NCBI GenBank assembly: GCA_913031335.1
Contig: CAJWGI010000006.1
Location: 1-14,052 of the forward strand
Source: an uncultured Anaerolineales bacterium
GTDB lineage: Bacteria > Chloroflexota > Anaerolineae > Anaerolineales > UBA11657
Direction: 5' to 3'
Length of the DNA: 14,052 nucleotides
Each line of letters begins with the position of its first letter. The stretch's first letter is position 1. The notes beneath the pieces were generated by a model, which saw only the letters and a program-made list of their open reading frames with translations, did not search any database and had not been told where the DNA came from. The position numbers and the translations under genes are program-made. Shown here piece by piece: positions 1 through 11,935 of the stretch.

Positions 1-551
1 AGCTGGAGCGTTGCGGCGCCGGCGTGGTGGGCATACCGTGCAACACTGCGCACGCTCCGCCCATTCTCGACATAATCAAGGCGAACATGACGCACCGTGA
101 CAGCGCGGTGACATTGCTCAACATGGTCGCTGAAATGGTGGCGTTTCTTCGCAGTCACCATGCAGATGTCAGGCGAGTGGGTGTGCTCGCCACCACCGGC
201 GCGCAGCGGGCGCGCATCTACACGCGCGCGCTGGAAAGACAAGGTCTGCTGGTCGTCGTGCCCACCGATGACGACCAGGACCGCATCGTGCATCCGGCCA
301 TCGCAGATGAGCATTACGGCATCAAAGCGTGCGCCAGTCCGGTTTCGCCACGGGCGAGAAACGACTTGCTTCGGTCGGTGCGTGCTTTGGCGAGCGCAGG
401 GGCGGAGGCGATCATTCTGGGATGTACTGAGATACCGCTGGCGATAACGGAAAGGGAAATTGACGGCGTGGCGATAATTGACCCGACATTGGTTCTGGCG
501 CGTGCGTTGATTCGCGCGGTCGCGCCGGAGAAGCTTCTGCCGCTGCACTAG
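1..551 (+). CDS. Aspartate/glutamate racemase family protein, 3' part
   Basis: This is the C-terminal ~180 residues of an Asp/Glu/hydantoin racemase-family enzyme. The frame is open from base 3, so the real start lies upstream of the window. Two hallmark cysteine motifs of the family are visible: CNTAH near the left edge (about base 40) and GCTEIPLAI near base 420. In characterised members the two cysteines act as the acid/base pair that inverts the alpha carbon of aspartate or glutamate without a cofactor. Between them a GVLATTG segment matches the start of the second half-domain. The spacing and the phrase 'PCNTAHAP' favour the aspartate racemase subgroup over MurI, but substrate cannot be fixed from this fragment. 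The gene converges on the yyaL-like gene, and their stop codons overlap inside CTAG. Confidence 0.85.
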
Positions 552-2596
552 TGCAGCTGTCGGCGCAGTGCATCTGCGTCGGTCACTGGCAGCCGACATT
601 CAAAATCCCGGCACACATACGCGGTGGCGTTGTTCCCTTTTTGGGCGCGGCCAGAAAGGAGCGGTACGAGGACATCATCGCCGGGAGATTCACAGCAGGC
701 TACCACTTGATGGGGGCGATACGGGTGCTGGGCGGCAGCCAGCAGCGCACGCGTGTCGACCGCATCGGGAGCGCCGATTACGGCAATCTCATACCTGGAA
801 CTGACCGTAAACGAGAGTGCTTGCAGCCACTGCCCAAAACCGGTGGGGTGGCGGCCCGCCATATTCTGCATGGTTCTTAGGGCATTCTCAGCCGCTTCAG
901 TGAATCTGCGTTCGCCGCTGTAAGCCCCCAGTCTGAGCAGCACGCCAGCAGCCATGGCGCTTCCAGAGGGTGTGGCGTTGTCCTGCAAAGTCTTCGGGCG
1001 CACCACCAGTGTTTCGTGGTCGGCGCTGGTGTCGAAAAAACCGGCCCCATCCTGAACGCTAAAGTGCGCAAGCATGCTATCTGCCAACTGGTGGGCGACC
1101 AGGTACCAGCGCTGATCAAAGGTGGTTTGATAGAGCTGCAACAAACCCTCTGCCAAACAGGCATAATCCGAAAGGTACGCGTTCAGTTTGGCGGAACTGC
1201 CAGCGCGCCAGGTTCGTAGCAGTCTACCATCGCTTCCGAGCAGCGTTTCCAACAGGAACTCCGCGTTGCGGATGGCGGCCATGCGGTAATCGGCGCGGTC
1301 TAGCACGCACGCGGCCTCCGCCATGGCAGCCAGCATCAGCCCGTTCCACGCAGTGATTATCTTGTCATCTAGGCCGGGCCGCACGCGCTCTTCGCGCCGG
1401 GCCCACAACGCCGCGCGGGCGCGGGAAAGCGCGGCCTCCACATCCGTTTCGGGCATCCTGAAATGGGCGCCCAAATCCGCCGTGGGAAGTTTGACATGCA
1501 GGACGTTGACGCCCTCGAAGTTCCCGCGCGCGGTGACACCGAACGCGGCCATGACCAATTCTGCGTGTTGCGGCACTGTGGCGCGAATCTCATCGGCGCT
1601 CCAGACGAAGAACTTGCCCTCTTGCCCTTCCGAATCGGCGTCCTGCGTGCTGAAGAACCCACCCCGCGAATGCGTCATCTCACGGAGCACATAATCGAGG
1701 GTCTCGGTGGTGACGCGGCGATAGAATTGCTTTCCGGTGAGTTGATACGCGTGCAGGTACAGTCGCGCGATCTGGCTGTTGTCGTGAAGCATTTTTTCGA
1801 AGTGAGGCACCAGCCAGTTGGCGTCCACCGAGTACCGATGGAATCCACCTCCGAGTTGGTCGTACATCCCACCCCGAGCCATGGCCTGTAACGTCTTCTC
1901 GACCATCTCCAGCGCGAGCGCATCTCCGCAGCGGTGATGCTGCTGCAAGAGGAATTCGAGTACCATCGGTTGCGGGAATTTTGGCGCTGTACCCCAACCG
2001 CCATTGCGGGCATCGAATCCTTGCCACAACGTGCGCGTGGCCCGGTCGAGGGCGTCGTCTGTCAAGGGTGGCGCGGATTCCTCGTCCGTGGCGGCGAGGC
2101 TGGCCGAAAGATTCTGGAGCAGCTGCTCCCCGCCCTCCAGCAGCTCCGACCTCCGTTGCTTCCAAGCTTGCGTGATGGAGTGGAGTACTTCCCCGAATCC
2201 GGGGTGCTGTCCGCGTCGTTTCGGCGGGAAATAGGTGCCGCCAAAAAACGGTACGGCCTGCGGAGTGAGCCAGACGCTCATTGGCCATCCGCCGTGGCCG
2301 GTCATGGCGACCACCGCGTCCATATAAATCGAGTCTAGGTCGGGGCGCTCCTCGCGGTCGACTTTTATGCTGATGAAATCGGCGTTCAGCAGTGCCGCCA
2401 GTTCCGCGTTTTCGAAGCTCTCACGCCCCATGACGTGGCACCAGTGGCAAGCCGCATAACCGATGCTGAGGAAGACCGGCTTGCCTTCGGCGCGGGCGCG
2501 TGAGAACGCGTCGTCGCCCCATGGGTACCAGTCGACCGGGTTGTCTTTGTGCTGCAGTAGGTACGGGCTGCTCTCGCCCGCAAGGTGGTTGGGCAC
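548..2596 (-). CDS. yyaL: Thioredoxin domain-containing protein, YyaL/DUF255 (SPATA20) family
   Basis: A complete 682-residue protein, the usual length for this family. Residues ~1-160 form the DUF255 thioredoxin-like domain, with the diagnostic opening [21 protein letters not shown] and the redox-type motif C50-H-W-C53-HVM, followed by KVDREERPD and GGWPM. The rest (~170-680) resembles the alpha/alpha-toroid of glycoside hydrolase/epimerase folds, as in other YyaL proteins. The physiological role is not established; a redox or cellobiose-epimerase-like role is only suggested by fold. The start chosen is GTG at 2596, which has a good Shine-Dalgarno (AGAGGGA on the minus strand, about 2602-2608) and begins exactly at the conserved N-terminus. 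The gene lies 49 bp downstream of the carA-carB remnant on the same strand. Plus-strand reading frames across it are shadows. Confidence 0.93.
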
Positions 2597-2645
2597 GCTT
2601 TCCCTCTGGAAGCTAGTATATCGTTCTTCGCGGAGAGCGGCTCAG

Positions 2646-3548
2646 TCAGGAGTAATGTTGTTGCAGGCTGTGCACCTGAAGGCTCTTGGCGCGCATTGCG
2701 CGGCTGTCGTCGTACGCGGTCTGCCCCAGCGGGGTGTTGACAATCAGGTCAAGTTCGCCGGCCGCTACCATTTCGGCGATGTGGTGACCGCCCTCATCCA
2801 CTTTGCGCGCAACATTTACCGGCAGCCCGCTTCGTTTTATCCACTCGGCGGTGCCGGAGGTCGCCAGCAATTTGAAATCCATGCGGTGCAATTCGCGCGC
2901 TATTTTCAGGATGGCGCTTTTGTCAAAATCGTTCACGGTCAGCAGCGCTGTGCCATCGGTCGGCAAGGGCACGCCGGCGGCCAACTGTGCCTTGGCGAAA
3001 GCGTGCCCGAAGCGCGCGGCGTGCCCCATCACCTCCCCGGTGGAGCGCATTTCCGGACCGAGCAGCGTGTCCACTCCGGGGAACTTCTTGAACGGCAGCA
3101 CGGCCTCCTTGACGAAAAAACCGTCCACGGGCAGCATTGAGGTGAAACTCAGTTCCGCCAGCGATTTGCCCGCCTGCACCTGGGCAGCCAGTCGCGCAAT
3201 CGGGTGACCAGTGGCTTTGTTCACAAATGGCACCGTGCGGCTGGCGCGTGGGTTGACCTCGATGACATAAACCGCATCGTCTTTGATTGCGAATTGCACG
3301 TTCACCAGGCCGCGCACTTTCAGCGCCTTGCCCAAGCGCTCGCTTTCCGCGTCCTCCGGCGTGACCCCGTAATTGCCGATATGGGGCATGGTCATAGTGA
3401 TTATTTGCCTGTGATAAGAGGGGTCGGTGAGGACTTCCTGATAACCGGTCAGGCTGATGTTGAAGACGATCTCCCCGGTAGCGTCGCCCGCAGCGCCAAA
3501 GCTAACGCCGGGCCAGAGAGTTCCATCTTCAAGGGCGAGCAGGGCCGG
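2646..3548 (-). pseudogene. Chimeric carbamoyl-phosphate synthase remnant: CarA N-terminus fused in frame to CarB C-terminus
   Basis: Read on the minus strand, 3548 to about 3350 encodes the start of the CPSase small subunit: [27 protein letters not shown] and PHIGNYG are all CarA landmarks. At about 3353-3336 (around EDAESER) it changes without frameshift into the large subunit: [28 protein letters not shown], then the MGS-like allosteric domain with KLLATSGTA and [11 protein letters not shown]. Missing are the whole glutaminase domain of CarA with its catalytic Cys, and roughly the first three quarters of CarB, so the product cannot make carbamoyl phosphate. The C-terminus also ends early ([13 protein letters not shown], stop at 2646) where CarB proteins normally continue some 20-30 residues. 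No ATG, GTG or TTG occurs in frame between the upstream stop (3573-3575) and the CarA homology; the first in-frame ATG is at 3395, inside conserved CarA sequence. Deletion pseudogene or assembly collapse are both possible. Confidence 0.88.
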
Positions 3549-3572
3549 GGAGGATAACGTGACGCGATTATC

Positions 3573-4769
3573 TCAGATGTGAGCGAGTGCTTGCTCCAAG
3601 TCCGAGATTATATCATCAGCGTCTTCGATGCCCACGGAAATCCTGACAAGATTATCCTTGATGCCGACGGAGAGCCGCTCTTCGGGCTCGAGTTCATAAT
3701 ATGACATCAACGCAGGTTGTTCGATAAGCGTCTCAACCCCGCCGAGGCTGGGGGCGATGTACGGGATTGTGACAGCATCCACAAGCCGGCTTGCGCCCTC
3801 CAGTCCGCCGGGCACCTCAAAGCTGATAACACCGCCGTAGCCGCGCATTTGCGCTTTCGCGACAACGTGGTCGGGATGCGAGGGCAATCCCGGATACCAC
3901 ACTCGCTCGACCTGCGCATGGCTCTCGAGGAATTCGGCCACGCGCTGCCCGTTCTCGTTTTGCCGGGCGATGCGAAGCCCAAGCGTTTTCAAGCCGCGGA
4001 TGAGCAGGAAAGCCTGTTGCGGGGCCAACACGGCGCCCATCATCCCGAGCAGCTTCCGAACCAGCCCGGTCAACTGTTCGCTGCCGCACACCGCGCCGGC
4101 CAGAAGGTCGTTGTGGCCGCCGAGGTATTTTGTGCCCGAATGCATTACCAGGTCGATGCCGTATTCAAGTGGGCGCAGATTGAGCGGAGTGGCGAAGGTG
4201 GCGTCAATCAGCGTCTTCACTTTGTGGCGCCGGCCGATTTCGGCAAAACGCTGCAGGTCGAGGCAACGCGTGTAGGGGTTGGTCGGCGATTCGGAGACCA
4301 GCAACTTCGTCTCCGGTCGGATTGCCGCTTCGAGTGCGTCGTAGTCGCCCGCGGGCGCAACTGTGCAGTCCACGCCGAATCGTTTCAAAAATGTACGGCA
4401 AAACTGACGCGTGCGCCGGTACGAATCATCGGTGATGACCATGTGCGTGCCAGCGCTCAGGAATGCCAGTAGCGTGAGGGTGGTGGCGGCCATTCCGGAG
4501 CCGCACAATACGCAATCGCCGGCACCTTCCAGCGCGGCCAGACGGGTCTCGGCGGCTGCTACGGTGGGGTTGCCATAACGTCCGTATTCAACACGCCCAT
4601 CTGCATTTCCCCAGATAGCGGCATCCATAAATTCGCACAAATCGCGTGTGTCTGCGAATGTATAAGTGGCGCTCTGCACGATTGGCTCGGTAAGCGCGTG
4701 GTGCGGCTTTTCGCGCTTCGCTCCGGCGTGCACTGCGCCCGTGGAATCGTTCACTTTTCTATTGCTCAT
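3573..4769 (-). CDS. PLP-dependent trans-sulfuration enzyme (cystathionine gamma-synthase/O-acylhomoserine sulfhydrylase type)
   Basis: A complete 398-residue Cys/Met metabolism PLP enzyme, normal length. Family landmarks are EYGRYGNPT (62-69), CGSGMAA (89-95), SESPTNP (159-165), the cofactor-contacting Asp in DATFATP (D189) and the Schiff-base lysine K214 in HSGTKYLGGH. The fold supports gamma-replacement or gamma-elimination on homoserine esters, cystathionine or methionine. The upstream SAM-I riboswitch argues for methionine biosynthesis, so cystathionine gamma-synthase or direct sulfhydrylation fits better than a catabolic lyase, but the exact reaction is not readable here. The start is ATG at 4769, with GGAGG at 4774-4778. 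A longer open frame to 4985 exists, but its extra 72 codons translate the riboswitch and terminator and are not protein. The carA-carB remnant follows immediately, in the same frame after the TGA. Confidence 0.93.
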   Translation of the reverse strand: MSNRKVNDSTGAVHAGAKREKPHHALTEPIVQSATYTFADTRDLCEFMDAAIWGNADGRVEYGRYGNPTVAAAETRLAALEGAGDCVLCGSGMAATTLTLLAFLSAGTHMVITDDSYRRTRQFCRTFLKRFGVDCTVAPAGDYDALEAAIRPETKLLVSESPTNPYTRCLDLQRFAEIGRRHKVKTLIDATFATPLNLRPLEYGIDLVMHSGTKYLGGHNDLLAGAVCGSEQLTGLVRKLLGMMGAVLAPQQAFLLIRGLKTLGLRIARQNENGQRVAEFLESHAQVERVWYPGLPSHPDHVVAKAQMRGYGGVISFEVPGGLEGASRLVDAVTIPYIAPSLGGVETLIEQPALMSYYELEPEERLSVGIKDNLVRISVGIEDADDIISDLEQALAHI

Positions 4770-5863: not shown

Positions 5864-8377
5864 ATGAGCGAGATTCCGGATAGAGCACAGGTTGTCGTTG
5901 TCGGCGCGGGCATTGTGGGTAACAGCCTGGTCTACCATCTGGCTGACATGGGATGGAAGGACGTGGTGCTGCTAGATAAGGGCCCGCTGCCAAACCCGGG
6001 TGGGTCCACCGGGCACGCCTCCAACTTCATCTTCCCGGTTGACCACTCTAAAGAAATGACTGCGCTGACGGTCGAAAGCATCAAAACGTTTAATGATCTT
6101 GGCATGTTTACAGAGCCCGGCGGCATCGAGCTGGCGCGCACAGATGAGCGCATGCAGGAGCTGACCCGCCGGCTTACCTCGGCGAAATCGTGGGGAGTGC
6201 CGGCTGAACTCATCACCCCGGAGCAGGTGAAAGAAAAAGTGCCTTTCGTGAACACCGACCTGATTAAGGGCGGCTTCTGGTGCCCGACCGCCGGTGTGGT
6301 CGACCCGCTGAGGGCCGGCACGCTGATGCGAGAGCACGCGCAGAAAGCGGGCTCTTTGCGCAGCGTGCACGCCAATGTGGAAATCACCGGCATTGAGGTG
6401 CAGGCTGGCCGGGCGCGCGGCATGCACACTAATCAGGGTTACATCGGCGCAGAGTACGTCGTCATTGCGTGCGGCGTGTGGAGCCCGCGCTTGGCGGCGA
6501 TGGCGGGTGCGCGCATACCGCTCACGCCGATGGTGCATCAGTTTGTCACGGTGGGGCCAATCACCATTTTCGAAAACACACGCGGTGAGATCGATTTCCC
6601 GGTGGTGCGCGATGTGGACGTGAATATGTATGAGCGTCAGAACGGCAGCGACCTTGAAATCGGTTCCTACAGCCATCGGCCGATTCACCATTCTCCGGAT
6701 GATATTCCCTCCAACGAGGAGGCGTCGCTCACCCCCACCGAGCTGCCGTTCACCGACGATGATTTTGACGAGAGCATGGAAAACGCACTGGAATTGATGC
6801 CGGAGATTCTGGAAAATGTGGGCACGCGCCACGCCATCAATGGGCTGATGTCGCTCACGCCGGATGGCGGCCCGATAATCGGGGAAATTCCGGAAGTTAA
6901 GGGGCTGTGGTCGGTGGCGGCTATCTGGATTAAGGAAGGACCCGCATTCGGGCGCGTTGCGGCGGAGTGGATGACGAAGGGCTACTCTGAGATTGACGCT
7001 CATGCCGCCAACATCGCGCGCTTTTATGACCACTCGCGTACGGACACTCACGTGCGCGCGCGTACCGGCGAATCATTCAACAAGATGTACGGGATAGTGC
7101 ATCCGGCCGAACAGTACGAAAGCGTGCGAAACGCGCGCGTAAGCCCGTTCTTCGCGCGGCAGCAGGAGCTTGGCGTGGTTTATTTTGAAACCGCCGGCTG
7201 GGAGCGTCCACAATGGTACGGCTCGAACGAAAAGCTACTCGCCGATTGCGGCGAACGCGTGATGCCGCGCCCGGCGGAGTGGGAATCACGCTGGTGGTCT
7301 CCCATCATAAACGCCGAGCACCTGGCAATGCGCGAGCGCGTCGGCCTGGTTGACCTGACCGCCTTCTCGATTTTCGATTTCAGCGGCGAGGGCGCATTGG
7401 ATTACATTCAGCGCATGACGGTGAACCAGATGAACGTGTATGTCGACCGGGCGGTCTATACGCCACTGCTCGAGCCGCAGGGCGGCTTCAAGGCCGACCT
7501 GGCCATCATGCGGCTAGCGGAAGACCGCTTCCGTGTCATCACCGGGGGCTCTACCGGGAACATCGACAAGAAATGGTTCCGCGACCACATGCCGGAGGAC
7601 GGCTCAGTGCGCTTCGAGGAGCTCACCTCCTCACTGTGCACGCTAGGGCTGTGGGGCCCCCGCGCCCGCGACGTGTTGCAATCGGTCTGCAACGACGATG
7701 TCTCGCACGAGAGCCTTCCGTACGGCTGGGTGAAAGAAATCACCATCGGGGTGGTGAAGGCGCTGGCCTTCCGCATCTCGTACGTGGGCGAGTTGGGCTG
7801 GGAGATATACACTGAGATGGAGCACGGACTGTTGCTGTGGGATACGCTCTGGGAGGCCGGGCAGCCGCACGCGATGCTGCCGGTGGGTATGGGGGTCTAT
7901 GGCACCACGGCGCGGTTGGAGAAAGGGTACCGCGCTTACGGAATGGAACTAGAATCGGAATACAACCCGGTGGAGGCCGGTCTGGCACGCCCGAAAGTCA
8001 AGCAGGCTGATTTCATCGGTAAGGAAGCTTACTTGCAGGCGCGCGCGGCAGAGCCGGTTGCCATCCTGTGCACGCTCACTCTGGATGACCCCATCTCGTC
8101 GGGCGGCGAGCCGCGTTACATGCTCGGCAACGAGCCGATTCTCTCAGAGAATGGTGCCCCCATTGTGGATAGCCACGGGCGACGCTCGTACGTCACCAGC
8201 GCCGGCTCTGGGCCCTCGGTTGGCAAGCATTTGCTGCTGGGCTATCTTCCGCCGGATTTTGCGCAGCAGGGAACGCAACTCAAGGTTGAGTACCTCGGCG
8301 AACAGTACTCGGTCAGCGTGGCGGTGGCAGGCAGCATGCCACTGTTCGACCCTACCGACGAACGCATGAAGCAGTGA
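5864..8377 (+). CDS. Dimethylglycine oxidase/dehydrogenase-like flavoprotein with folate-binding GcvT domain
   Basis: An 837-residue two-part enzyme matching the layout of Arthrobacter-type dimethylglycine oxidase and mitochondrial DMGDH/sarcosine dehydrogenase. Residues 1-~380 form an amine-oxidase (DAO) FAD domain with GAGIVG at 14-19. His51 in GGSTGHAS aligns with the His that carries covalent FAD in this family. His225 (MVHQF) and Tyr256 lie where the oxidase has its active-site His/Tyr pair. Residues ~380-440 are the FAO_M linker. Residues ~440-735 are a GcvT/aminomethyltransferase domain with conserved D545 (FKADLA) and YVGELGWEIY, and ~735-830 is GCV_T_C. The expected reaction is oxidative N-demethylation, with the methylene transferred to tetrahydrofolate. 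The adjacent etfBA suggests ETF rather than oxygen as acceptor. Substrate (dimethylglycine, sarcosine or a related amine) is inferred. Start ATG 5864 follows an AGGAAGAG ribosome site. Confidence 0.9.
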   Translation: MSEIPDRAQVVVVGAGIVGNSLVYHLADMGWKDVVLLDKGPLPNPGGSTGHASNFIFPVDHSKEMTALTVESIKTFNDLGMFTEPGGIELARTDERMQELTRRLTSAKSWGVPAELITPEQVKEKVPFVNTDLIKGGFWCPTAGVVDPLRAGTLMREHAQKAGSLRSVHANVEITGIEVQAGRARGMHTNQGYIGAEYVVIACGVWSPRLAAMAGARIPLTPMVHQFVTVGPITIFENTRGEIDFPVVRDVDVNMYERQNGSDLEIGSYSHRPIHHSPDDIPSNEEASLTPTELPFTDDDFDESMENALELMPEILENVGTRHAINGLMSLTPDGGPIIGEIPEVKGLWSVAAIWIKEGPAFGRVAAEWMTKGYSEIDAHAANIARFYDHSRTDTHVRARTGESFNKMYGIVHPAEQYESVRNARVSPFFARQQELGVVYFETAGWERPQWYGSNEKLLADCGERVMPRPAEWESRWWSPIINAEHLAMRERVGLVDLTAFSIFDFSGEGALDYIQRMTVNQMNVYVDRAVYTPLLEPQGGFKADLAIMRLAEDRFRVITGGSTGNIDKKWFRDHMPEDGSVRFEELTSSLCTLGLWGPRARDVLQSVCNDDVSHESLPYGWVKEITIGVVKALAFRISYVGELGWEIYTEMEHGLLLWDTLWEAGQPHAMLPVGMGVYGTTARLEKGYRAYGMELESEYNPVEAGLARPKVKQADFIGKEAYLQARAAEPVAILCTLTLDDPISSGGEPRYMLGNEPILSENGAPIVDSHGRRSYVTSAGSGPSVGKHLLLGYLPPDFAQQGTQLKVEYLGEQYSVSVAVAGSMPLFDPTDERMKQ

Positions 8378-8428
8378 GACTGCCCATCCGACCGTGCGAA
8401 AAACTCAGGGAGAACGCAAGGATATTCA

Positions 8429-9199
8429 ATGGAAATCTTAGTGTGCGTTAAACGTGTTCCGGTTCCCGGAGTCAGATTCGTGTTGACGGAGGACGAGCGC
8501 GAAATCGTAACCCGCAACCTTGGCTTCACAATCAGTCCGCATGAGGAATGTGCGGTGGAGGCGGCTGTGCAGCTGGTGGAGCAGCATGGTGGAAGCTCCA
8601 CGGTGCTCACCATGGGGGAACCGGCTGCGGTTGAGCAGCTGCGTTTCGCCATTTCGATGGGCGTTAACGAGGCTGTCCTGATTGAGACCGATGGCGGCGA
8701 GTGCGACGCGGCCGCCACCACGGCGGCCATCGTGGAGGCCGTCCGTGCGGAGCAATCAGCGGGGGTTCCATTCGACGCGTTGCTGTTCGGCAACGAATCC
8801 GCAGACGCGGGCAACTACCAGGTTGGGTTGGGCGTGGCGCATGCGCTGAACCTTCCCTGCGTGGTGGGCATCAAAGCGCTGGATGTTCAAGCCGATGGAA
8901 GTGTCGTGGCAAAAAGGGAGATCGCAGAGGGGTGGGAGGTATATGAACTGGCGTTGCCGGCGGTGTTCACCGTGAAGGAGGGCGTCAACTTGCCGCGCTA
9001 TCCGCTCTTGCGCGGGAGACTTGCGGCAAAGAAAAAAGAAATCAAAACCTATCCCGCGCAGGGCCCGGGTGAAGCCGGCCTGGAAATGATGGCCTTCAAG
9101 AATCCGCAAGAGACTGCGAGTCAGGTGGAGGTACTTGGCGAGGGCCCCGGCGCTGCTCCGAGAGTGGCGGCGCTGCTGCAGGAAATGGGGGTGCTGTGA
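8429..9199 (+). CDS. etfB: Electron transfer flavoprotein subunit beta
   Basis: A full-length EtfB of 256 residues. It opens with the typical ILVCVKRVP strand and contains FTISPHEECAVEAA (about 33-46) and GNESADAGNYQVG, which forms the nucleotide-binding region. The beta-subunit signature is around AKREIAEGWEVYELALPAVF, followed by VNLPRYP. It forms a heterodimer with EtfA and carries electrons from a primary dehydrogenase to the respiratory chain via ETF-ubiquinone oxidoreductase. It starts 51 bp after the dimethylglycine enzyme and overlaps etfA by one base, so all three are probably co-transcribed and this ETF likely serves that dehydrogenase. Start ATG 8429 has an AAGGAT-like ribosome site. 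Confidence 0.96.
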   Translation: MEILVCVKRVPVPGVRFVLTEDEREIVTRNLGFTISPHEECAVEAAVQLVEQHGGSSTVLTMGEPAAVEQLRFAISMGVNEAVLIETDGGECDAAATTAAIVEAVRAEQSAGVPFDALLFGNESADAGNYQVGLGVAHALNLPCVVGIKALDVQADGSVVAKREIAEGWEVYELALPAVFTVKEGVNLPRYPLLRGRLAAKKKEIKTYPAQGPGEAGLEMMAFKNPQETASQVEVLGEGPGAAPRVAALLQEMGVL

Positions 9200-10167
9200 T
9201 GGTACTGGCGTTTCTCGAGCTGGAGCAGGGTGAAATCAGCGAGCTCTCGCTGCAAATGCTCAACCTTGCGGCCGATATCGCCGCCCAGATGAACACCGGA
9301 GTACAGGCTGTGCTGGTCGGTGAGGATGGGCGAACGGCGGCGGGCGACCTTGCGGCATATGGGATTTCCGAGGTGCATGTAGTCGAACACGAAGAACTGG
9401 TGGATTACGCGCCGGAGGCCTTGGCGCAAGGCCTACTGCAGCTCATGGCTGCGCTGCAGCCGAAAGCGCTAATCGCGGCCGGCAGCGACCGCGGCAATGA
9501 ATTGCTGGCGCGCGTGTCCGTGCGCGGCGAGCTGCCCATGGCGGCCAATTGTATCGCCGCGAGCGCCGGCGAGGGATTGCGCGTGACGCGCGTGCGCTGG
9601 GGCGGCAGCCTGCTGGAGGAAGCCGTGCTGCGCGGCTGTCCGGCATTGCTCACCGTGATGGCGCACATGCTTGCCCCGATTGAAGCTTCGCCGGCCGGGA
9701 GTGAGCCGAACATCAGCAGCTTTCAGACCACGCTAAACGCGGATGATTTGCGCGTGCGCGTGACGGCGCGTGAGCCCGTGGGCGGGGGCGTCTCGCTCAA
9801 CAATGCCCCGGTGGTGGTGAGCGGCGGCCGCGGAGTGGGCAGCGCGGAGGGATTCGATATCCTAGAGAAACTGGCGGGTCAACTTGGCGCGGCTGTGGGC
9901 TGCTCGCGGGCGGTGACGAATAACGGCTGGCGCCCGCATTCCGATCAGGTTGGTCAGACCGGCGCGCAGATTTCACCTGAACTCTACATAGCCTGTGGAA
10001 TCAGCGGTGCCATTCAGCACATGTCCGGCTGTCGCGGTGCGAAACGCATTCTCGCGGTCAACACAGACCCGGAAGCGCCAATCCTGCAGCGCGCTAATTA
10101 CGCCGTGACTGGTGACCTGCACGAGGTGCTGCCAGCGCTGAGCGCGGAAATCGATAAACTTGCTTGA
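9199..10167 (+). CDS. etfA: Electron transfer flavoprotein subunit alpha
   Basis: A full-length EtfA of 322 residues. The N-terminal ~185 residues form the ETF alpha/beta domain. The C-terminal FAD domain carries GGRGVGS, SRAVTNNGW, HSDQVGQTG and the alpha signature LYIACGISGAIQH, with AVN after it. The start is taken as ATG 9199, which overlaps the etfB stop as TGATG; a GTG one codon earlier (9196) is an alternative. The overlap indicates translational coupling with etfB, as expected for an obligate 1:1 dimer. No quinone-reducing partner is encoded in this window. Confidence 0.96.
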   Translation: MVLAFLELEQGEISELSLQMLNLAADIAAQMNTGVQAVLVGEDGRTAAGDLAAYGISEVHVVEHEELVDYAPEALAQGLLQLMAALQPKALIAAGSDRGNELLARVSVRGELPMAANCIAASAGEGLRVTRVRWGGSLLEEAVLRGCPALLTVMAHMLAPIEASPAGSEPNISSFQTTLNADDLRVRVTAREPVGGGVSLNNAPVVVSGGRGVGSAEGFDILEKLAGQLGAAVGCSRAVTNNGWRPHSDQVGQTGAQISPELYIACGISGAIQHMSGCRGAKRILAVNTDPEAPILQRANYAVTGDLHEVLPALSAEIDKLA

Positions 10168-10188
10168 AGTATACGGATTTGGTAGAAT
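10160..10188 (+). promoter_or_regulatory. Possible internal promoter ahead of the corrinoid gene
   Basis: TTGCTT (10160-10165) and TAGAAT (10183-10188) are 17 nt apart in the 78-bp etfA-corrinoid gap. A GTATAC palindrome (10169-10174) falls in the spacer. The match is modest and read-through from etfBA is equally possible. Confidence 0.3.
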
Positions 10189-10245
10189 TTGCGCCACGGC
10201 GCTCACGATGAAATCTTCTGCATTACACTGTATCCCGGAGGGGAC

Positions 10246-10953
10246 ATGGAAGAAGAGCTAGATCTCACTCAGCTGAAAAACCCCGAGCTAATCGAGCAGA
10301 TTCAGGACGACCTGTACGATGGCCTCGCGGAGGAAGTAGAGGAAGGCGTACACGAACTGTTGAGCCGCGAAATGACGCCGTACGATGTGCTCACGCAAGC
10401 ACTGGTAGGGGGCATGGATGTGGTTGGGAAGGACTTCCGCGAAGGGGTGCTTTTCGTGCCCGAGGTGCTGATGGCGGCGAAAGCCATGAAAGCCAGCATG
10501 ACCATCCTGCGGCCGCTGTTGGTGGAAACCAACGCGCCACAGGTAGGTACGGTCGTGATTGGCACCGTCAAGGGCGACATCCACGACATCGGCAAAAACC
10601 TGGTGGCGATGATGATGGAAGGCGCTGGCTTCGAGGTGATTAACCTGGGAATTAACAATGATGCTGAGTCTTTCTTGGACGCGGTGCGCGCGCACAACGC
10701 CGATATTCTGAGCATGAGCGCGCTGCTGACCACAACCATGCCTTACATGGATGTGGTCATAAACGCGGTAAAGCAGGCCGGACTGCGCGAAAAGGTGATT
10801 GTGATGGTGGGTGGCGCGCCGCTCAATGCGGCCTTTGCTGAGGAGATTGAAGCGGACGCCTATTGCCGCGATGCCGCCGTTGCAGTCGAGACCGCCAAAG
10901 AGTTGATGAAAATCAGACGGGATTATGCTGGACAAAGTAACGAGCAAATTTAA
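10246..10953 (+). CDS. Methyltransferase corrinoid protein (MtbC/MttC/MtaC type)
   Basis: A 235-residue cobalamin-binding protein of the size of methylamine/methanol methyltransferase corrinoid carriers. Residues ~10-92 form the helical cap domain (B12-binding_2). Residues ~97-230 form the Rossmann-like B12 domain with the full signature: D111-I-H113-D-I-G116, where H113 is the lower cobalt ligand, then S158-A-L160, then GG at 189-190. Such proteins accept a methyl group on Co(I) from a substrate-specific methyltransferase and hand it to a folate or thiol methyltransferase. The MttB-family gene at 13661 is the natural partner. No reductive activase (RamA/RACo type) is visible here. Start ATG 10246 is set by a strong GGAGGGG ribosome site at 10237-10243; the frame extends upstream to 10189 but without support. 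Confidence 0.94.
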   Translation: MEEELDLTQLKNPELIEQIQDDLYDGLAEEVEEGVHELLSREMTPYDVLTQALVGGMDVVGKDFREGVLFVPEVLMAAKAMKASMTILRPLLVETNAPQVGTVVIGTVKGDIHDIGKNLVAMMMEGAGFEVINLGINNDAESFLDAVRAHNADILSMSALLTTTMPYMDVVINAVKQAGLREKVIVMVGGAPLNAAFAEEIEADAYCRDAAVAVETAKELMKIRRDYAGQSNEQI

Positions 10954-10969
10954 CTAAGGAGAGAATCTA

Positions 10970-11935
10970 ATGGCGGAGATGGCTGACATCAGTGTAATGT
11001 TGTTTCCCTGGGACGCGAGGAAGCCATCGGTGAGCGATATTGTCGAGGCCGCGAAGTTGGCCGAAGACCTTGGTTTCTACTCGGTCACACTGCCCACACA
11101 CATGACCACGCCACCGGGCTGGTTGTTTCGTGATTTTTCCAACCGGGATTTACTCGATGCCAAGGTAGTTTTACCTGCTATTGCCGCGGCGACCTCCAGG
11201 ATAAAAATCGGCTTTAACTCGCTGGTGCTACCTCTGCTCCCACCTTACGAGTGGGCCAAGTATCTGTCTACGCTGGACATTATGTCAGACGGTAGAGTTA
11301 TCTTTGGGGCCGTTATGGGCTGGTGGGAGGAAGACTTTGACGCTGTTGGGGTAGAGCGAAAGTATCGGGGGCAATTGTTCGACGAGCAGCTCGAAGCCAT
11401 CACCCGCCTGTGGACTGAGGACAAAACCACCTTCGAGGGACGGCATTATCAATTGAAGGATATGACCTTAGAGCCCAAGCCGATACAGAAACCTCATCCT
11501 CCAATCTGGATTGGAGGCGGCCTCAAATCAGTTCATCGGGCCGCCCGCTATGGGGAGTGTATCTTGTGCTTCTGGCCCAGCGAGGAGGAGACGCGATCTG
11601 TGTGGCTCCCAAAACTGCGGGAAGAAGGCGCGAAATGGGGTACCGACCCCAAACTTGCTGCCTTTACGTTTGTCTATGTGGCCAAAGACGAAGAGGATTT
11701 TCAGGCCCAGATGCCAAAACTGCAATTGGGCGTGGCCTTTGAAGATGAGAGTGTCGATCCTCTCGAGGTCACTATCAGCGGCACCCCAGAGCGGTGTGCC
11801 GAGCGGATCAAGGCCTTGACAGAGGCAGGGATTTGGCACTTCGTTGTCGAGTTCCAGTTCCACGGCCTGGAATCGGTCAGTTTTGGTATGAATCAGATGG
11901 AAGCCTTTGCCAGAGATGTGACACCCTTACTGTAG
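10970..11935 (+). CDS. LLM class (luciferase-like) flavin-dependent oxidoreductase
   Basis: A 321-residue TIM-barrel enzyme of the bacterial luciferase-like superfamily. Visible landmarks are the N-terminal barrel strand with EAAKLAEDLGFYSVTLPTH, IKIGFNSLVLPLLPPYEWAK, the LSTLDIMSDGRVIFGAVMGWW segment and KPHPPIWIGGG, with a C-terminal SGTPERCAERIKAL helix. Members use reduced FMN or F420; the cofactor cannot be assigned here. It lies 16 bp after the corrinoid gene behind an AAGGAGAG ribosome site, so it is probably part of the same operon, but luciferase-like enzymes have no standard role in betaine demethylation. Possible roles are oxygenative attack on a related N- or S-methyl compound, or a reductase step. 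Function is open. Confidence 0.88.
   Translation: MAEMADISVMLFPWDARKPSVSDIVEAAKLAEDLGFYSVTLPTHMTTPPGWLFRDFSNRDLLDAKVVLPAIAAATSRIKIGFNSLVLPLLPPYEWAKYLSTLDIMSDGRVIFGAVMGWWEEDFDAVGVERKYRGQLFDEQLEAITRLWTEDKTTFEGRHYQLKDMTLEPKPIQKPHPPIWIGGGLKSVHRAARYGECILCFWPSEEETRSVWLPKLREEGAKWGTDPKLAAFTFVYVAKDEEDFQAQMPKLQLGVAFEDESVDPLEVTISGTPERCAERIKALTEAGIWHFVVEFQFHGLESVSFGMNQMEAFARDVTPLL

Follow-up and report, generated by a model that had tools for sequence, protein, structure and literature searches.

Does the minus-strand frame at positions 3572-2646 of this DNA encode a working enzyme, or is it what remains of one? The window, which is the whole stretch of 14,052 nucleotides analysed here, is the entire contig C6 of a draft genome of Anaerolineales, Chloroflexota (G000; 1.73 Mb, 351 contigs, 73.3% complete, 3.5% contamination). 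Within it, a single open frame (hereafter the car frame) begins as CarA, the small subunit of carbamoyl-phosphate synthase (CPS), and ends as CarB, the large subunit. The enzyme is required for arginine and pyrimidine synthesis. We conclude that the car frame most probably represents the decaying remains of the carbamoyl-phosphate synthase genes, and consider it highly probable that it is a recent pseudogene, formed stepwise at this Anaerolineales bacterium's native carAB locus. The features on which this reading is based are collected in Table 1.

Table 1. Coordinates of the car frame, its segments, junctions and flanking genes in the window.
Feature	Position	Strand	Description
Car frame	3572-2646	-	One stop-free frame of 308 codons, TGA at 2648-2646
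CarA-derived segment	3336..3557	-	74 codons aligned to G001 carA; Pfam CPSase_sm_chain
CarB-derived segment	2646..3335	-	End of second ATP-grasp domain, linker, most of MGS domain, TGA
Junction 1	3333..3341	-	Codons E-R-L; carA on left, carB on right; from DNA alignment to G001
Junction 2 (ATGCGCGCC)	2688..2696	-	In-frame 84-bp (28-codon) deletion, cuts end of MGS domain
First ATG, GTG or TTG of car frame	3393..3395	-	Internal CarA Met; the stretch upstream, in which intact relatives start, has none
Upstream flank, Cys/Met metabolism PLP-dependent enzyme	3573..4751	-	83% identical over 392 residues to gene before carA in G001, no gaps
Downstream flank, DUF255/Thioredox_DsbH protein	548..2596	-	71% identical over 679 residues to gene after carB in G001, no gaps

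For DNA comparisons we used G001, the sole genome of the same genus in our searches of relatives' genomes, as the reference. Homologue sets for CarB and CarA, each comprising the best 120 of approximately 8000 matches, served for the alignments and for counts of changes at invariant columns. Profile searches covered a smaller sample of 61 relatives and 14 control genomes, and an order-wide draw of 201 genomes (200 that are at least 90% complete, and G000), in which CarB was scored on up to 3 candidates per genome. CarB was taken as present on a TIGR01369 match at E 1e-20, and matches over the family cut-off were counted separately.

The car frame starts just after the stop codon of the upstream gene; its first ~79 codons are CarA and the remainder CarB. 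Pfam identified CPSase_sm_chain at car-frame residues 12-91 (E 3.7e-29, model positions 1-76 of 126), CPSase_L_D2 once, at residues 79-140 (model positions 147-210 of 211), and MGS (PF02142) at residues 221-297 (model positions 2-85 of 94, 57.7 bits), with no match to a glutaminase domain anywhere in the frame. For comparison, the intact CarB P0006 contains two CPSase_L_D2, two L_D1, an L_D3 and a full MGS domain. Scores against the complete family models fall below their cut-offs, at 105.1 bits versus 307.35 for CarA (TIGR01368) and 182.5 bits versus 1027 for CarB (TIGR01369). By these Pfam and TIGR01368 results the frame lacks the combination of N-terminal domain and class I glutaminase domain that defines a functional CarA, and by Pfam it lacks the two ATP-grasp halves, oligomerisation domain and MGS domain of a functional CarB. 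Carbamoyl-phosphate synthase activity is not expected, since no glutaminase domain, first CarB half or complete ATP-grasp domain is left; this expectation follows from the domain needs of the known enzyme.

The original prediction had proposed an in-frame join of CarA to CarB lacking a glutaminase and a complete ATP-grasp domain. Both points were borne out, the join by a single 308-codon frame with a CarA N-terminus and then a CarB C-terminus (in Pfam, E. coli structures and G001 DNA), and the missing domains by Pfam. A product of ~300 residues, ending in the allosteric domain, had also been suggested. The length holds for the frame and not for the product, as there is no usual start upstream and the longest ORF with one is 249 aa, from the ATG at 3395; the allosteric MGS domain is indeed present and not complete, with 28 residues that are found in both P0006 and G001 absent near the C-terminus.

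The neighbouring genes place the frame at a native carAB locus. In G001, carA follows the PLP gene (contig C46) and carB precedes the DUF255 gene (contig C57), and both are ordinary as far as the contigs go, each running off a contig end. Both flanking proteins of the window align gap-free to G001, so the car frame alone has suffered deletions. The frame thus goes back to a locus whose intact form, flanked by the same genes, is present in close relatives (the G001 flanks, and the P0006 tail described below), in support of the collapse of carA and carB that had been predicted. A plasmid search with the locus gave no match.

Elsewhere in the window, positions 5864-11935 contain a cluster of genes for a DAO/GCV_T demethylating-type dehydrogenase, two ETF subunits, a corrinoid protein and a luciferase-like monooxygenase, whose composition is suggestive of methylamine or betaine breakdown. 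Near the PLP gene, the G001 stretches examined share with this region no more than the corrinoid gene and one short match to the frame on the GntR side.

Two deletions and the loss of the start codon separate the car frame from intact carA and carB. Approximately 3.3 kb are gone at junction 1, amounting to ~287 CarA codons (relative to 362-aa relatives) and 814 CarB codons (P0006 numbering), in agreement with the earlier estimate. Alignment to close CarA and CarB sequences, which had been proposed as a check, set the breakpoint at 3341-3333 and revealed short similar codons in G001, GACCGC in carA and GAGCGC in carB. At junction 2, the corresponding ends in G001 are ATGCGTGCC and CTCCGTGCG, a short repeated codon run 84 bp apart. 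The microhomology at both junctions is taken from the G001 sequence, from which the parent allele may differ. In both the window and P0121, a near-identical sequence, the Pfam MGS match stops at model position 85 of 94; in P0122 and P0006 it is complete. By chance, two deletions would both be in frame approximately 1 time in 9.

Upstream of 3395 the car frame has no ATG, GTG or TTG, and of the rarer start-like codons considered it contains ACG, CTG, ATC and ATA. In the intact CarAs P0247 and P0248, a Met stands right before a 12-residue stretch that is also present in the car frame, and the first residue among the 120 listed CarA homologues is M in 117, V in 2 and L in 1. The start loss and the second deletion are both lesions absent from the original prediction. 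Together, the missing start before 3395 and the two deletions amount to a loss of start and domains, while the reading frame itself is intact.

We identified further alleles of the locus, both deleted and intact. The closest intact CarB among the best 120 of ~8000 matches, P0006 (1082 aa), matches the window DNA at 83% over its last 29 residues, across the TGA of the window, and because the match continues past this stop codon we assign P0006 to this locus in a very closely related bacterium. P0006 is 11 residues longer at its C-terminus than is usual, and this extension corresponds to DNA that lies between genes in the window (2616-2648). P0121 (249 aa) has both deletions and differs from the window in one residue; its cluster comprises 10 member sequences on 2 contigs, the longest of 33,806 bp. 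The source entry of P0121 is the one used for proteins that the window itself encodes, so its second contig may have been reassembled from the same sample, in which case the samples would not be independent. P0122 (288 aa, 7 members, 2 contigs) has the first join and not the second deletion. In car-frame numbering it follows the window through residue 147 or further, and the intact P0006 from residue 219 onward, a pattern that points to a recombinant or to an assembly in which two alleles are mixed; in both cases P0122 contains the first join. This join is accordingly found in three non-identical sequences, the window, P0121 and P0122, and the comparison indicates that near relatives carry this locus in deleted, partly deleted and intact states.

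These alleles suggest a stepwise decay. A ~3.3-kb deletion between short similar codons would have joined carA at about codon 75 to carB at about codon 815, the join being observed and this mechanism being the probable one. The second deletion, of 84 bp and likewise observed, may have arisen between another short repeat, and took the end of the MGS domain; the start codon before the CarA part is gone. The 3.3-kb join would be the earlier of the two, since P0122 has the first only, although P0122 may be a mosaic. The 308 codons without a stop and the two in-frame deletions count against a pseudogene. That the frame is still open is most likely due to a recent loss and to two deletions that happened to preserve it; as a guess, weak selection against stops upstream of the DUF255 gene may have contributed.

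We compared constraint on the two parts of the frame. Relative to G001, dN is 0.084 in the CarA part (74 codons) and 0.130 in the CarB part (229 codons), and 0.114 and 0.189 in the flanking PLP and DUF255 genes; dS is saturated, so that dN/dS carries no verdict. The similar dN of the car frame and its flanks indicates that most of the divergence predates the loss, and that this was a normal gene for most of its history. When changes were counted leave-one-out, at columns without variation among the other homologues, the CarA part has 2 changes, a number reached by 1 of 120 homologues, and this is suggestive of relaxed constraint. For the CarB part the signal of relaxation is weak, with 1 change (13 of 120 intact CarBs have at least one); relaxing the criterion to columns that are at least 98% conserved gives 2 changes, a count that 11 of 120 attain. 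The CarB part of P0121 has 2 changes at invariant columns, as do 2 of 120 homologues. Derived changes in the CarB part, counted by eye, are similar on the window and P0006 branches (6-7 versus 7-9).

A real remnant could coexist with a working carbamoyl-phosphate synthase elsewhere in the cell, missed in the 73%-complete bin. We consider this rather unlikely; it is in any case compatible with a pseudogene at the native locus. About a quarter of the G000 genome may be missing, a close intact CarB exists in P0006, and G000 retains genes whose products need carbamoyl phosphate: pyrB, pyrC, pyrD and a pyrF-pyrE fusion in one cluster on contig C35 (pyrC and pyrD named by eye), and argF on C136. It also has upp. 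Against a second enzyme, the search of the rest of the genome for intact carA and carB, which had been suggested at the outset, found no other copy of either in G000, and P0006, whose tail runs into DNA that is intergenic in the window, looks like an allele of this locus from a different strain or a sister species and not like a second copy. Two candidates were rejected: C124 as a second CarB (weak, 29% identity to CarB residues 120-338) and C159 as a second CarA (its weak match falls within the glutaminase part of the CarA model). Lack of carbamoyl phosphate would be expected to cost a cell its pyr and argF genes in time, so this one may have an alternative source, contain a CPS outside the bin, or have lost the enzyme very recently.

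G000 additionally encodes a third transcarbamylase (C29, L169 275-1273), which is below the cut-off of all 16 NCBIfam models that it matched, and which adjoins hydantoinase/oxoprolinase-like and aldehyde ferredoxin oxidoreductase-like genes (both named by eye). Profile searches did not find arcC, encoding carbamate kinase, in G000 or G001; in G001 it may lie beyond a contig end, as the third transcarbamylase ends 141 bp before that end.

Less probable still is an assembly chimera, in which reads of carA and carB, or of two strains, were misjoined to give a frame that exists in no cell. The region does appear hard to assemble, given that the G001 assembly breaks inside both carA and carB, and P0122 resembles a mosaic of deleted and intact alleles. 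However, the longest exact word common to the carA and carB regions of G001 (which are without the carA 3' end and the carB 5' end) is 10 bp, and assembler overlaps are longer than this. A misjoin would also leave aside the separate, unrelated 84-bp deletion and the absent start codon in the same frame, and the first join recurs in the three non-identical sequences described above; an error confined to the assembly of one contig is unlikely. A working small protein encoded by the 249 codons from ATG 3395, such as an MGS-domain sensor or decoy, is very improbable: the frame survives two deletions with PF02142 still scoring over most of its length, but the second of these removes the last part of the MGS domain, complete in P0122 and P0006, its N-terminal half mixes two partial domains, and otherwise invariant residues are changed.

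The probable pseudogene stands in an order in which CarB went unmatched in most sampled genomes. We identified a CarB match (TIGR01369) in 44 of the 201 genomes of the order-wide draw, with the G000 remnant included and 41 over the cut-off, and none in the other 157; in the smaller sample, 17 of 61 relatives and all 14 controls matched. Of the 201 genomes, 188 have a carbamate kinase match (179 over cut-off), as have 2 of the 14 controls. Transcarbamylase models found matches in 58 of 61 relatives, with 52 exceeding the aspartate and 48 the ornithine family cut-off. With such a distribution of CarB and carbamate kinase, auxotrophy cannot be assumed. The arginine and pyrimidine auxotrophy that the original prediction had expected, barring a second copy, is not shown, as G000 is 73% complete and keeps downstream pyrimidine genes and argF, and CarB goes unmatched in most of the order-wide draw.

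Individual lineages differ in what they retain. Within the family, genus g2 gave no TIGR01369 match in 5 genomes, one of them at least 90% complete, and a sequence search there reached only 25-29% identity. One genome of this genus has, at a contig edge, a carA start of another type (G004 C28, L017 1-409), which looks proteobacterial by eye and so would be a transfer or contamination; this aside, the genus is without CarA or CarB over the cut-offs. Three genomes of family f9, genus g11 (G030, G042 and G054; 93-96% complete) kept carbamate kinase, and profile searches of them matched neither CarB nor an aspartate or ornithine transcarbamylase, an apparent loss of the first steps of both pathways.

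Carbamate kinase as a simple replacement for CarAB was rejected by the larger sample. In the first sample, arcC occurred in 38 of 44 CarB-less versus 10 of 17 CarB-bearing genomes (Fisher p 0.033), and in the larger one in 148 of 157 versus 40 of 44 (p 0.49; hand-counted, with kinship ignored), indicating that arcC is near-universal in the order rather than tied to CarB loss. Among the open-licence papers listed by our searches, we found none on the absence of CPS in Chloroflexi, Anaerolineae or Anaerolineales; one dealt with arginine deiminase enzymes. Tentatively, the Anaerolineales may have largely dropped CPS and kept the de novo pyrimidine and arginine genes, taking carbamoyl phosphate from ureido compounds or arginine through transcarbamylases, from carbamate kinase, or from both; the window and its close intact allele would then capture one such loss soon after it happened. 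The remnant itself is ordinary gene decay, and its interest lies in the enzyme missing across the order: it is a snapshot of CPS loss, in an order where most sampled genomes gave no CarB match.

Finally, we compared the car frame with known systems. Natural CarA-CarB fusions such as CPS I have a CarA-like part before a CarB-like part in one chain and retain the domains of both subunits, whereas the car frame retains just the two outer ends. Its match to mitochondrial CPS I (PDB 5DOT, 6UEL) covers 5DOT residues 1186-1435, the CarB-like end. Compared with E. coli CarAB (PDB 1A9X, 1BXR; TIGR01368/TIGR01369), the frame, searched with 303 of its 308 codons, matches CarA residues 4-85 and CarB residues 814-1036, and the glutaminase domain, ~814 CarB residues, the end of MGS and the usual start codon are absent. 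The origin of carbamoyl phosphate in these bacteria becomes a directly testable question, for which an archaeal parallel has been published: according to PMC13260591, canonical CPS is absent from most Thermococcales, an archaeal order that keeps its pyrimidine genes, and knock-outs in T. kodakarensis trace carbamoyl phosphate to arginine via ArcE and ArcB. Catabolic transcarbamylases as a source of carbamoyl phosphate are reviewed in PMC6022934. As in the Thermococcales so described, the sampled Anaerolineales keep pyrimidine genes, mostly without canonical CPS; the arginine-derived supply, in contrast, is established by knock-out in T. kodakarensis.
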